The position numbers were made by a program, and so were the translations under genes. Shown here piece by piece: positions 44,028-49,174 of a DNA stretch of 64,000 nt. The first letter of the stretch is position 1; each line of letters opens with the position of its first letter. The stretch is from Marinobacterium litorale DSM 23545 (GTDB lineage Bacteria > Pseudomonadota > Gammaproteobacteria > Pseudomonadales > Balneatricaceae): NCBI RefSeq assembly GCF_000428985.1, contig NZ_AUAZ01000014.1, positions 1-64,000 on the forward strand, read 5' to 3'. Below the pieces are notes generated by a model. It ran no database searches and was not told where the DNA came from. It worked only from the letters and a program-made list of their open reading frames with translations.

Positions 44028-44234
44028 TCACTATGAGGTTTTTGTGGGTGATCCGTGTTTGTTTTTGCAGGGTTGGTTGAATTATAGACAGTTAATGTGT
44101 CCCAAGTGCTTGTTTTAAGGTCGGTACTGGCCAAAATTGCCAGAGCGGTTCATAGTGAAAATGTGGGGCGGTCGCTTTTTTACGTAGAGTGAGGCTGCCC
44201 GCCCCGTATTCAGTTCGTGCAGGGAGGTCCTGAT

Positions 44235-45632
44235 ATGACCGATGCTTATGTCAATGCCAGCGTTACGCCGCTGGAGAGTCTGGACATGCTTTCGCCCTAC
44301 GAGGTGGCAAAGCTTCAAGATAAGAGTCAGGGGGGGCTCTACCGTCTGTTGCGTCAATGTGCACTGGCGGTACTGAACTGTGGCAGTGAATTGGACAGTA
44401 CGCGGATGGTGTTGGAGCGTTTCCGCGATTTCGATATTCAGATCAGCCATAAACACCGCGGGGTGAAGCTGGACCTGCTTAATGCACCGCCCTCGGCGTT
44501 TGTTGACGGTGAAATCATTCAGGGGATTCGGGAACACCTGTTCGCCGTTTTACGCGATCTTCTTTATGTGGAGGACGAGTTCAGGGATTGTTGTGAAGAT
44601 CTGGATCAGTCCGCCATGGCGACGAACATGGTGTTCCATATTCTGCGCCACGCTAACGCGTTGAGACCGCATGTTAAACCCAATCTGATGGTCTGCTGGG
44701 GTGGGCACTCTATTCAGCGCCACGAATATGAATACACCAAAAAAGTGGGGTATGAACTGGGACTGCGCTATCTGAATATCTGTACCGGCTGTGGTCCGGG
44801 GGCGATGAAAGGGCCGATGAAAGGCGCAGCCATTGCCCATGCCAAACAGCGTATTCCGGACGCGCGGTATGTGGGGATTACGGAGCCCGGTATTATCGCG
44901 GCGGAATCCCCCAACCCAATCGTTAACGAGCTGATTATCATGCCCGATATCGAGAAGCGGCTGGAGGCGTTTGTGCGGTTGGGACACGGTATTATCGTGT
45001 TCCCGGGTGGGGTGGGTACCGCCGAGGAGATTCTCTATATGCTTGGCATCCTCCTGCAGGAGGAAAACCGGGATATCCCCTTCCCGTTTATCTTTACCGG
45101 CCCCTCCGGCAGCGAGGCCTACTTCGAAACGGTAGACCGTTTTATTGCCGATACGCTGGGCGAGCGGGCGCGAGGCCTGTATGAGATCATCATCGATAAC
45201 CCCCACGCAGTCGCGGCCCGCGCACGTCAACGGGTCGATGAGGTCACTACTCACCGACGCGGGGCCGGTGAGTCATTTCATTACAACTGGCAGTTACATA
45301 TACCGATGGGTTTTCAGCAGCCTTTTGAACCGACCCACGCCAATATGGCAAAGCTGAATCTATCAAAGCAACAGCCTGACCATGTGTTGGCCTCTCAGTT
45401 GCGTTGTGCGCTTTCCGGGATTGTCTCCGGCAATGTCAAAGAGCCCGGGATTCGGGCGATCGAAGAGTTTGGACCGTTTGAGCTCAAAGGGGAGCCTGAG
45501 GTCATGGAAGCCCTCGATCGGTTGCTCAGCTCGTTTGTCGAACAGCGGCGCATGAAAATCAACCACGAGGATTACAAACCCTGCTTCCGGCTGGCGCGAC
45601 CGGCGGCGTCAGCGTCAGTCCAGAGCGTCTAA
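44235..45632 (+). CDS. ppnN: nucleotide 5'-monophosphate nucleosidase PpnN
   Basis: This 465-aa protein is close to E. coli PpnN/YgdH (454), which cleaves purine and pyrimidine nucleoside 5'-monophosphates to base and ribose 5-phosphate and is controlled by (p)ppGpp. The LOG-type catalytic motif is visible as GCGPGAMKGPMKG and FPGGVGTAEEILYMLGILL. GGGAGGTCC precedes the ATG at 44235. Its last 18 nt overlap the convergent PutA-like gene. Confidence 0.94.
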   Translation: MTDAYVNASVTPLESLDMLSPYEVAKLQDKSQGGLYRLLRQCALAVLNCGSELDSTRMVLERFRDFDIQISHKHRGVKLDLLNAPPSAFVDGEIIQGIREHLFAVLRDLLYVEDEFRDCCEDLDQSAMATNMVFHILRHANALRPHVKPNLMVCWGGHSIQRHEYEYTKKVGYELGLRYLNICTGCGPGAMKGPMKGAAIAHAKQRIPDARYVGITEPGIIAAESPNPIVNELIIMPDIEKRLEAFVRLGHGIIVFPGGVGTAEEILYMLGILLQEENRDIPFPFIFTGPSGSEAYFETVDRFIADTLGERARGLYEIIIDNPHAVAARARQRVDEVTTHRRGAGESFHYNWQLHIPMGFQQPFEPTHANMAKLNLSKQQPDHVLASQLRCALSGIVSGNVKEPGIRAIEEFGPFELKGEPEVMEALDRLLSSFVEQRRMKINHEDYKPCFRLARPAASASVQSV

Positions 45633-48035
45633 CAAGCTTTCGGGCCGGCTGGCGCGCTGGAAACGCGCCAGCGCTTTCAGGTAATCCGCTGTGCCGGGCA
45701 GCGCGGTGGTACCTGAGAGACCAACACCGCTGCGTGTGGGCGGGTAAGCGCAGCCCGCATCGGACGAGGGTGCCAGGGCGTACTCGGCCAGACGTGCCTC
45801 GCGCTCGATATGTTCGCTCAGCGTTGTGTCGTCGGTAAACAGTGAGAGGGCGATAGCGAAGCCCGACCGGTTGATTTCATCGGTGACACGACGAATCTGG
45901 TCGCGGTTAAAACGGACAATGTACAGCAGAGGTCCATCGATCTGCTCCTGTAATTCATCCAGACTGTAAAGACGCAGGAGCGCGGGTGGGACATAGTACC
46001 CCTCTTCGAGCTCGGTTCGTATCTCGCCGTGGGCGATCAGCCTTCCTTTGGTTCGGAAACGCTCAATTTGAAGATAGGCACGATCCATCTGATCCCGGGT
46101 AATCAGGGGCCCTATATCGGTAGCACGATGCTCCGGTGGACCGATCCTGAGGTTTAACAGTGCCTGCTTCAGCATCTGTTCCAGCCGGTCGGCGATCGAC
46201 TCTTCCACGTAAGCAACCCGCAAGGAGCCGGGGTTCTGACCATTATCCCTGAAGGCTGCCTCAATCAGTCTGGGCAATATCTGATTCAAGTCCTGATCGG
46301 AATCAACAATCGCCAGGTGACGGCCACCGGTGTCGGTCAGCAGTGGCAGGGGCGGTGCGCCAACCCGGCGGGTCAGCCGTCGGTAAACTTCCGCTGCAGC
46401 GGATGGATTGCCACAGAACATCACGCCGTCGAGGCGATAATCGTCCAGCAGAAAGTGCCCCGTGGACTCCAGAGAGCCGGGTAAAAACGCGGTTAAGTTG
46501 GCGGGAAGGCCTGCCTGTAACAGTAAACCGTAAAGGTGAGCGCTGACCAAAGTTGCCCGGCTGGCGGGTTTTATCAACAGTGCATTGCCCATCAGCAGCG
46601 CGGCACTGGTCGTGGCGCAGAACTGAAAGATTGGCTGGCTCCAGGGTAAAAGAGCAAGCAGAGTGCCCAATGGGTGTGGCGTGAGCGTACAGGTCCGTCC
46701 GGGAGATGCGCTCAACGGTGTACTCGACAGTACATGGGTGGATAGACGCAGATGCTGCCGAATCAGCTGAATACCCTGACGGGTCTCTTCCAGAAGGTCT
46801 TTCAGCGGTTTGCCGGTTTCCGTCGCGCCGATCAGCGCAACTTCAAGCTGCTGATCGCAGAGGAGCTGCGTAAAACGCTCGATAATCGAGTGTCGTTCAT
46901 AGGGCGCTTGGTCGCGCCATACAATCTGCGCATCGGTGCACAGTGCGAATGCTTCACGGGTGTCATCCTCGGTCGCTTCCTGTACCTCACCGATGGGATC
47001 ATGCACGGCGCCCGGATGGTTGATGGTTTGCGGCTCACTTCCGCCTTTCGGCTGACTGCCGATCACGGGCTTTCCATGCATCGGTTTGGCGCGCAGGCTA
47101 TGGGTGATCTCATTCAGGCGCTCGCTGACGATGGTGAGCCCTTCATGTAAACAGGGTGCCCCCTGAATTGTTTCGCCCGTTTCACTCGCACTGGCCGATG
47201 AGGCCTCCAAAAGATCTATTCTCCAGCCACGTTCTTCGCACAGAGCCGCCAGATTGGGTTCAATGGTCGGCCCTTGCAGGATCAACGCCGGCGTCAATCC
47301 GCTGTTATTTTCACTCTCAAGAAAGGCACAGGCGGTCATCAGGTTGAGATGAATGCTGTTCGTGCTTTCCAAGTGGGGCTGGCAGTTGGCAAACGGCCAG
47401 GGTTGGGGCGAAAGATAGCTGCACTGATAAAGACGTACAAAAAGCGGGTGTGTCAGGTCAACGGTTAGCTTTTCCAGATAGCCCAGGGTGGGTAGCAGGC
47501 GTTTGGAAGCCGCGCTAAGCTCGATCCCGAGTTTGGCATCCGAGGGCGCAACTTCAAGCAGCCGCTGGAGTATTTTCAACCAGCTTTCCAGTTGCGTTTC
47601 AGAAGGCAGCGCAAGAATCAGAGCGGTGTCGCGCTCCTGAGCGATCTGTGCCAGGGCGGCCAGTTTACGCACCAGCGATTCCAGTAGTAGATCTATCGCC
47701 TCTACGGAACAGTTACCTTGCAGACTGAACGGATCCACCAATACTGAATCGCCACTGTTGCTCTGTTCGATCGCGTTCAGGTAGATGTTGAAACGGTGGG
47801 TTGCCTGCTCTGTGGTCAGGACGCGAGGGGAGGGGAGAGCGATCGTGGCGTCGTGCCGGTGGCTCTCCTTCGCAGCGGGCGGTTCGTCCCCGGAACTCAA
47901 TGAAAGTTCAAGCTCCATGAGTGCCTGAAGCAGGTGCTCCGAGTCCGTGAGCGCAGCCTGAGCGACGCCCCGCCGCAGCTGCTGGGCGTTCATCAGACGG
48001 AACTCTTCCGAAAAGTATAAAGACGGCGGTAGCAT
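45615..48035 (-). CDS. PutA-like protein with lost catalytic residues (pseudoenzyme)
   Basis: The C-terminal ~460 residues of this 806-aa protein align by eye with the P5C (aldehyde) dehydrogenase domain of PutA: TETGKPLKDLLEETRQGI, HPLGTLLALLPW, GNALLIKPAS, RATDIGPLITRDQ and the final GVGLSGTTALPGT. The N-terminal ~340 residues look like a shortened proline dehydrogenase barrel. However, the nucleophile segment GQRCS reads GQNPGS (Cys to Pro), and the catalytic Glu of ETGG is Asp (DTGGRH). PWNFP is PWSQP and EVFGP is QIDGP. Both activities are therefore doubtful. The frame is intact over 806 codons. The ATG at 48035 is chosen because GTAGAGG precedes it; 48056 and 48083 are alternatives. Confidence 0.82.
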   Translation of the reverse strand: MLPPSLYFSEEFRLMNAQQLRRGVAQAALTDSEHLLQALMELELSLSSGDEPPAAKESHRHDATIALPSPRVLTTEQATHRFNIYLNAIEQSNSGDSVLVDPFSLQGNCSVEAIDLLLESLVRKLAALAQIAQERDTALILALPSETQLESWLKILQRLLEVAPSDAKLGIELSAASKRLLPTLGYLEKLTVDLTHPLFVRLYQCSYLSPQPWPFANCQPHLESTNSIHLNLMTACAFLESENNSGLTPALILQGPTIEPNLAALCEERGWRIDLLEASSASASETGETIQGAPCLHEGLTIVSERLNEITHSLRAKPMHGKPVIGSQPKGGSEPQTINHPGAVHDPIGEVQEATEDDTREAFALCTDAQIVWRDQAPYERHSIIERFTQLLCDQQLEVALIGATETGKPLKDLLEETRQGIQLIRQHLRLSTHVLSSTPLSASPGRTCTLTPHPLGTLLALLPWSQPIFQFCATTSAALLMGNALLIKPASRATLVSAHLYGLLLQAGLPANLTAFLPGSLESTGHFLLDDYRLDGVMFCGNPSAAAEVYRRLTRRVGAPPLPLLTDTGGRHLAIVDSDQDLNQILPRLIEAAFRDNGQNPGSLRVAYVEESIADRLEQMLKQALLNLRIGPPEHRATDIGPLITRDQMDRAYLQIERFRTKGRLIAHGEIRTELEEGYYVPPALLRLYSLDELQEQIDGPLLYIVRFNRDQIRRVTDEINRSGFAIALSLFTDDTTLSEHIEREARLAEYALAPSSDAGCAYPPTRSGVGLSGTTALPGTADYLKALARFQRASRPESLLDALD

Positions 48036-48241
48036 CTCTGTTGCCTCTACATCCATGCAAAGTGAACCGGGAATTGCCGGCACGGATCGCTACCGTTGGT
48101 CATATCCGCGGAGCGTTCCTTAGGACAGTGTATCGGAATCCGCAGCAGATGCCATCGGCTTGTTCGTTGCCTGGAGTATGACTTTTGGGGTTTCAACCGC
48201 TATATTAGCGCGGTTTTTTCAATCTTTAGCGGGTATCGATT

Positions 48242-49174
48242 TTGCGGCGCAAACTTGTAGTGACCCTGACCACTGTGCACGGATCGCGGCAGTACACGCT
48301 TAATCAAATCGCAAAATATATCGTCGCGGCTTTTCTGTTGATGGCCGCGCTCAGCTTTTTTGTATCCAATCTGCTTTTGGTCAAGACCACCGATGATCTA
48401 CTGGAGCTGGAAGATACGCACCAGCAGTTGTCGGATCAGTACGAACTGATGCTGGGAACGCAGCAGCTTTACCGGTCTGAGCTGAACTCATTGGGTGATG
48501 CGTTGTCATCGCTGTATGCCGAGCGTGAAGAGCTGGCACAGCAAAACCAGATGATGGGCACTGAGCTGGAAAATCTGGAGTCGATGTTGGGTGTACTGGA
48601 CGCGGAACCCGCAGCGACGGCCCAGGAGCGGGCTGAGGTGGCCAAAGCCGCGGCGAAACAGCGTCTTTTCATGCTTTATGGTGTGCCGAACGGCGTTCCG
48701 ATTCAAAGTGAGAGAATCAACGACCGGTTCGGGATGAGAAATCATCCGACACTTAAGAAACGCACCATGCATAACGGCATCGATTTCAAAGCCGCAAAGG
48801 GAACACCGGTGTATGCAACGGCGGATGGTGTGGTCGAGTTTGCCGGATATAACAAAGGGTCGGGATACGGTTATATGGTGCGTCTGACCCACAATCTGGG
48901 TTTCAAAACGTACTATGCGCATCTGGACTCGGTCAAAGTGAAGCCCAAGGCCTTTGTGCACAAGGGGCAGCTGATCGGTTTGAGCGGTAATTCCGGGCGC
49001 TCTACCGGGCCGCATCTGCATTACGAGGTACGTCACCTCTATACACCACTTGATCCGGAGCCGTTCATGAAATGGGGGCTCAATAATTTCGAATCGATTT
49101 TCTCCGCCGTCGAGGAGGTTCAGTGGGAATCATTAAGCGCAATGTATCCGCTAAATCAGGCGGCTCAGCCGTAA
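48242..49174 (+). CDS. M23 family peptidoglycan endopeptidase with coiled coil
   Basis: This 310-aa membrane-anchored protein has one transmembrane helix (IAKYIVAAFLLMAALSFFV), a periplasmic coiled coil (~50-125) and a LytM/M23 domain. The zinc ligands are in MHNGIDFKA (H, D) and GPHLHYEV (HxH), with the catalytic histidine region YYAHLDSV. It should cleave peptidoglycan cross-links. The start is a TTG at 48242. The RRKLVVTLTTVHGSRQYTL opening is characteristic of a shape-related group. The bactofilin gene overlaps its 3' end by 52 nt. Confidence 0.9.
   Translation: MRRKLVVTLTTVHGSRQYTLNQIAKYIVAAFLLMAALSFFVSNLLLVKTTDDLLELEDTHQQLSDQYELMLGTQQLYRSELNSLGDALSSLYAEREELAQQNQMMGTELENLESMLGVLDAEPAATAQERAEVAKAAAKQRLFMLYGVPNGVPIQSERINDRFGMRNHPTLKKRTMHNGIDFKAAKGTPVYATADGVVEFAGYNKGSGYGYMVRLTHNLGFKTYYAHLDSVKVKPKAFVHKGQLIGLSGNSGRSTGPHLHYEVRHLYTPLDPEPFMKWGLNNFESIFSAVEEVQWESLSAMYPLNQAAQP

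Follow-up and report, generated by a model that had tools for sequence, protein, structure and literature searches.

The window analysed here, a stretch of 64,000 nucleotides, carries on its minus strand a gene related to putA, lodged between ppnN and a gene for an M23-type peptidase. Its product, called pseudo-PutA below, belongs to a truncated form found in 13 of 116 genomes of the family. The features of the locus are these, with residues counted from the ATG at 48035.

45615..48035, minus strand: pseudo-PutA coding sequence, 806 aa plus stop, ATG start (frame reading, residue comparison, carrier alignment)
47961..48035, minus strand: residues 1-25, conservation 0.57 in truncated pseudo-PutAs against 0.36 in intact ppnN-linked PutAs (conservation scan)
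47259..47876, minus strand: remnant of the proline dehydrogenase (PRODH) barrel, about residues 54-259, FAD/proline-binding end absent (approximate, profile positions being used as window residues)
45672..47123, minus strand: P5C dehydrogenase (P5CDH) part, of ALDH fold, residues 305-788, without catalytic residues (Pfam, solved-structure match, alignment)
46332..46334, minus strand: codon 568, Asp replacing the general-base Glu (alignment; codon position computed from the ATG)
46230..46232, minus strand: codon 602, Pro replacing the catalytic Cys (alignment; codon position computed likewise)
45861..46160, minus strand: residues 626-725, including the best-conserved stretch of truncated pseudo-PutAs (676-725), near the level of intact ppnN-linked copies (conservation scan)
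44217..45632, plus strand: ppnN, nucleotide 5'-monophosphate nucleosidase, convergent neighbour in 13/13 carriers (ORF list, synteny)
48242..49174, plus strand: M23-type peptidase gene, divergent neighbour in 13/13 carriers (synteny)

The minus-strand frame is free of stops from 45615 to 48083, and its ATG at 48035 is supported by the residues M1-L2-P3, invariant among the 10 aligned carriers. In five of six aligned congeners this ATG is preceded by GGAA; in the window that site reads GCAA, with GAGG a few bases further upstream. At the other end, the 3' ends of ppnN and the pseudo-PutA gene overlap by 18 bases. A block at about 48198-48217, just 5' of the peptidase gene, is conserved across six aligned congeners (in the window, the hairpin CGCTATATTAGCG and then a T-rich tail, on the plus strand) and may belong to that gene rather than to pseudo-PutA. 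An upstream regulatory signal for pseudo-PutA was considered and dropped, as the block adjoins the peptidase gene and little else upstream is conserved.

The initial annotation had seen an intact frame with lost catalytic residues, its C-terminal half being the P5CDH domain of PutA. This is borne out. Pfam Aldedh matches the window protein at E=4.7e-69 (233.6 bits against a cut-off of 23), which gives it the fold of the ALDH superfamily, and the top solved-structure matches, over residues 321-804 of an 822-aa reading, are PutA. The top NCBIfam model is also PutA, but the score of 295 bits, where the cut-off is 747, is too low for a PutA equivalog. In the alignment the catalytic Cys has become Pro602, the general-base Glu Asp568, the oxyanion Asn Ser466, E399 Gln698 and F401 Asp700, the E-x-F nicotinamide contact reading Q-x-D; the aromatic box is absent as well.

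The 13 carriers, twelve of which came from one genome search and the last (G077) from a further one, comprise six genomes of the window's genus (g1), five of g6 and two of g4; a strain-specific error is thereby ruled out. None has kept the nucleophilic Cys or the general-base Glu, as a P5CDH enzyme would, and E399 and F401 are gone in all. Loss of the Cys is common to all 13, but the change to Pro seen in the window is not: g1 has four Pro and two His, g6 five Arg, g4 two Pro. The Glu has become Asp in all six g1 carriers and His in all five of g6, with Asn also among the replacements. Loss of the oxyanion Asn holds for the window but is not general, the residue being kept in 8/13 carriers. 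Substrate contacts of P5CDH named in PMC12398946 include Asn707, Phe708, Arg843, Cys844, Ser845 and Phe1010; Phe708, Cys844, Ser845 and Phe1010 are retained in no carrier, Arg843 in two (G073, G074) and Asn707 in eight. The P5CDH part has 107 columns that do not vary among 32 active PutAs; 19 of them survive in all 13 pseudo-PutAs, and 22 survive in no pseudo-PutA.

The N-terminal half had been taken for a shortened PRODH-like part, which agrees with what a profile comparison finds. Pfam Pro_dh matches window residues 1-339 weakly (E=0.013); a profile of 10 carriers aligns to positions 211-428 of the PutA chain (E=5.5e-17) and to 539-1035, leaving 429-538 unaligned. Proline-site contacts reported for Sinorhizobium PutA include Lys265, Arg488, Arg489, Tyr473 and Leu449 (PMC12398946; by our count, our chain positions run about 2 ahead of that numbering), and all of these except Lys265 lie inside the missing stretch. 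In 13/13 carriers Lys265 is replaced and the stretch with the Arg pair deleted, so that the proline-binding residues of PRODH are lacking. Only 4 of 76 PRODH-part columns invariant in the 32 active PutAs are kept in all 13, and 38 are kept in none. Judged from residues and alignments, both active sites are gone, and deletions have removed the end of the PRODH barrel along with most of the N-terminal arm/alpha region. The extreme N-terminus persists, its motif MLPLxLYFS resembling the MFPLSLYFS of the intact G021 copy.

Repression is a moonlighting activity of trifunctional PutAs (PMC5293562), and DNA binding was among the roles first suggested for the window protein. Pfam at E up to 1 finds in it no RHH or other DNA-binding domain, such as would mark a trifunctional PutA, and Pro_dh-DNA_bdg, detected in an intact copy, is absent from its matches; that the protein should be a DNA-binding transcriptional regulator of the put genes is hardly credible.

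All 13 truncated genes are convergent with ppnN and have the M23 peptidase gene on their other side; because these neighbours are the same across three genera, recent horizontal arrival was ruled out. Genera g7, g15 and g16 have a full-length PutA convergent with ppnN, in most cases adjacent to it but at a distance of about 2.2 kb in G093, G094 and G101. There are 19 such PutAs with ppnN in view. The Cys, Glu, Asn and PRODH Arg pair are all present in 15; the remaining four, all of g15 (G057, G065, G067, G069), have lost some of these residues. These full-length, mostly intact copies at the same locus, and the partly degraded ones among them, were unforeseen by the initial annotation. In the tree the truncated proteins form one clade (support 100/100), and together with the intact ppnN-linked PutAs they split from PutAs located elsewhere, again at 100/100; the tree comes with a warning that the truncated groups bring long branches together. 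G067 was left out of this tree and included in a later one, from which the cut or fragmentary G099, G111, G112 and G119 were excluded; G130 was counted as ppnN-linked in the later tree and the conservation scan, though ppnN was not seen in the stretch of it that was examined. Because other genera hold a full-length, mostly intact PutA convergent with ppnN, and because locus and side of the tree are shared with it, the comparison of sequences places the pseudo-PutA gene as a descendant of an ancestral ppnN-linked putA.

A contig scan with the single window protein found no relative, and one with the alignment as query yielded nine loci, each from a record with Marinobacterium as its title. In an order-wide sample of 390 genomes (two candidates scored for each row shown), 139 had a match at E<=1e-105; among the matches listed, those of 6 genomes only, all g1 or g6, start at profile position 1, and all others start at 241 or later. 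Of the 13 carriers, just these six appear among the order-wide matches, the draw being a sample. In G007 no match to ppnN was found.

Is such a gene simply on its way out? Eleven pairs of truncated genes were compared by NG86, three of them with saturated dS (G085/G087, G001/G005, G000/G005), and in all eight unsaturated pairs dN/dS lies between 0.06 and 0.35. It is 0.063 for G073/G074 (bootstrap 0.019-0.128, dS 0.05), 0.113 for G002/G003 (bootstrap 0.088-0.141, dS 0.97), and 0.135, 0.184 and 0.217 for three further g6 pairs (dS 1.5-2.0); in g4, dS is saturated (pS 0.76, pN 0.20). The window genome against G001, G004 and G003 gives 0.26, 0.30 and 0.35 at dS 1.7-2.2, hence moderate constraint in its lineage, with dS near saturation. 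Other genes of G002/G003, computed on ORFs from the first start codon, give 0.027 for ppnN, 0.043 for the other PutA and 0.111 for M23, a value that may for this reason include non-coding codons. Neutral evolution of the same pair would predict about 76 nonsense changes, and neither frame is interrupted; indeed all 13 truncated frames lack stops, with GC3 well above GC2 in each. When five pairs were split, dN/dS came out lower for the ALDH half than for the first 330 residues in all but G073/G074; one of the four agreeing pairs is saturated. By these measures the truncated pseudo-PutA is under purifying selection, a pseudoenzyme whose catalytic residues are lost and whose frame is constrained. 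Very recent decay without stops, the alternative first entertained, is refuted because dN/dS is low and the losses are common to the carriers, while the selection then proposed on a non-catalytic role gains support from the loss of Cys in 13/13, from dN/dS below 0.4 in unsaturated pairs and from the intact PutA elsewhere in the genome.

A slower decay, in which a redundant putA is gradually being lost while its frame survives under weak residual constraint, deserves separate consideration. The gene evolves fast: the window copy is 44-48% identical to the pseudo-PutAs of congeners, against 82-85% for ppnN. In the congener G006 the M23 gene and ppnN stand about 300 bp apart with no gene between them (L056), a clean loss, so that pseudo-PutA is dispensable there; conserved residues are lost by degrees in g15; and in most pairs with unsaturated dS for both genes, pseudo-PutA has a higher dN/dS than the co-resident putA. 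Exceptions to this last point are G073/G074 (0.063 against 0.081) and G000/G003 (0.346 against 0.339, about equal, with PutAs of different classes). Against the low dN/dS in every unsaturated pair and 13 stop-free frames with their codon bias, slow decay appears quite improbable.

Where the constraint lies is informative. Fourteen pocket positions were picked from papers on ALDH and PutA (PMC8160307 and PMC12398946), 13 of which are conserved columns. Their mean retention is 0.20, against 0.55 for 122 other conserved columns, a value as low being reached in 6 of 10000 random draws; conservation falls from 0.97 in intact copies to 0.25 in pseudo-PutAs in the pocket, and from 0.61 to 0.43 in the rest of the ALDH half. 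By contrast, residues 676-725 remain at 0.60-0.64 (0.67 in intact copies) and residues 626-675 at 0.46-0.49 (0.47-0.52), and 326-375 and 501-525 are likewise near the intact level, at lower conservation. A new enzyme exploiting other residues of the old pocket could account for replacements that are uniform within a genus, as with His for Glu and Arg for Cys in 5/5 g6 carriers or Asp for Glu in 6/6 of g1. The replacements differ between genera, however (Cys to Pro/His, Arg or Pro; Glu to Asp, His or Asn), the pocket is on average less conserved than its surroundings, and E399 and F401 are missing throughout, which leaves this possibility with little probability. Since the constraint sits at the N-terminus and residues 626-725 and not in the pocket, its location suggests binding or scaffolding, and the N-terminal segment together with residues 626-725 would be the candidate binding surface.

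Carriers of degraded copies mostly have another PutA. One is present in 17 of 18 of them (13 truncated, 5 of g15), the exception being G085, an assembly of 420 contigs; in all 12 truncated carriers examined it is intact at the motifs, the other PutAs of g15 carriers lying outside this count. It is linked to putP in 8/12, with 1039-1126 aa; in G004, on a short contig, no putP is in view; and in G002, G003 and G087 it belongs to a different class, of 1143-1208 aa, 44-50% identical to the PutA of the window genome. Between putA and putP of the window genome (L045:9028-9726) lies a 232-aa ALDH-like protein, whose best NCBIfam match is to 663-799 of the bifunctional PutA model and the second-best to 1162-1318 of the trifunctional one, and which is perhaps a PutA C-terminal domain standing on its own; comparable ORFs adjoin putA in G018, G129 and G111. 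That pseudo-PutA might serve the active PutA as dedicated partner or regulatory subunit, in a heteromer, is in keeping with this regular company and with PutA being its nearest relative, and a complex with the true PutA had been suggested at the outset. Yet 108 of the 116 family genomes match a PutA-type profile, which gives co-occurrence little weight, the carriers differ in the class of their other PutA, and G006 retains PutA without the pseudo copy; a dedicated partner is therefore unlikely, though of all the rivals it keeps the most weight.

A second, partial degradation has occurred in g15. Ten of its ppnN-linked PutAs were examined. Five (G021, G060, G063, G064, G066) have intact motifs and retain 97-100 of 101 conserved PRODH columns and 134-136 of 138 P5CDH columns. 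G057, G059, G065 and G069, a clade nested among the intact copies (100/100), retain 61-70 and 105-112, respectively. The Glu is missing from G065, together with one Arg, and from G069, together with the Asn; G057 is without Cys, Asn and one Arg. Every one of these residues (Cys, Glu, Asn, both Arg) is still present in G059, which, going by them, may be active. G067, a long branch of uncertain placement, has an open frame of 1047 aa from which Cys, Glu, Asn and both Arg are gone, and its P5CDH half (72/138) is more eroded than PRODH (63/101), the reverse of the clade of four; a rule that PRODH dies first is contradicted by it, and G059 keeps its motif residues. These degraded full-length PutAs, partly or wholly so, lie at the ppnN locus (L114:4103-7246, L159, L160, L161, L162). 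Four pairs within the clade of four have dN/dS of 0.18-0.25, and three pairs of intact g15 copies have 0.06-0.09, the series leaving out G013/G130 and G013/G027; G067 against G021 gives 0.18 at dS 2.96, near saturation. A single grouping of all 18 degraded rows is rejected (p-AU 0.03, subject to the long-branch caveat of the tool), and the g15 copies are, on these trees, a lineage separate from that of the window.

Taken together, we consider it probable that pseudo-PutA is a conserved pseudoenzyme derived from an ancestral ppnN-linked putA that had become redundant. Another PutA would have taken over proline oxidation, and the old copy would have been retained for a non-catalytic role played by its ALDH-fold part; protein-protein binding, as a scaffold or a self-assembling binding protein, is the likeliest such role. 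More tentatively, and with somewhat less than even confidence, the ppnN-linked PutA may have been made non-catalytic at least twice in one family, with intact, half-degraded and dead stages extant, the selected function of its product being independent of proline chemistry and of any one PutA partner. Conversion of an enzyme to a pseudoenzyme is usually inferred from its end points. Here intact, partly degraded and dead PutAs share one chromosomal neighbourhood in related bacteria, mostly with another PutA elsewhere, and because they coexist at one locus the steps and the retained function are directly testable. Automatic labels of 'PutA' or 'aldehyde dehydrogenase' on such genes would misstate their function. 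Among the matches listed from open-licence PMC literature on inactive PutA or ALDH relatives, there was no earlier report of a PutA pseudoenzyme.

With the bifunctional PutA of type A, as in the intact ppnN-linked copies, pseudo-PutA shares domain order and N-terminal motif besides locus and side of the tree, but it is shortened from about 1045 to about 800 aa and has lost both catalytic sites. The C-terminal domain of type B and C PutAs, as described in PMC5293562, is likewise a PutA-family part that assists without being a catalytic domain; it comprises 100-200 residues within an active PutA, whereas the window protein is a separate, whole P5CDH-like protein. A further parallel is human ALDH16, an ALDH-fold pseudoenzyme without the catalytic Cys for which a binding role is proposed (PMC8160307). 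Both have the ALDH fold and have lost this Cys, but ALDH16 is not derived from PutA, as the window protein is, and, in the Loktanella structure described in the same source, it has an extra C-terminal non-functional cofactor-binding domain not seen in the window protein.
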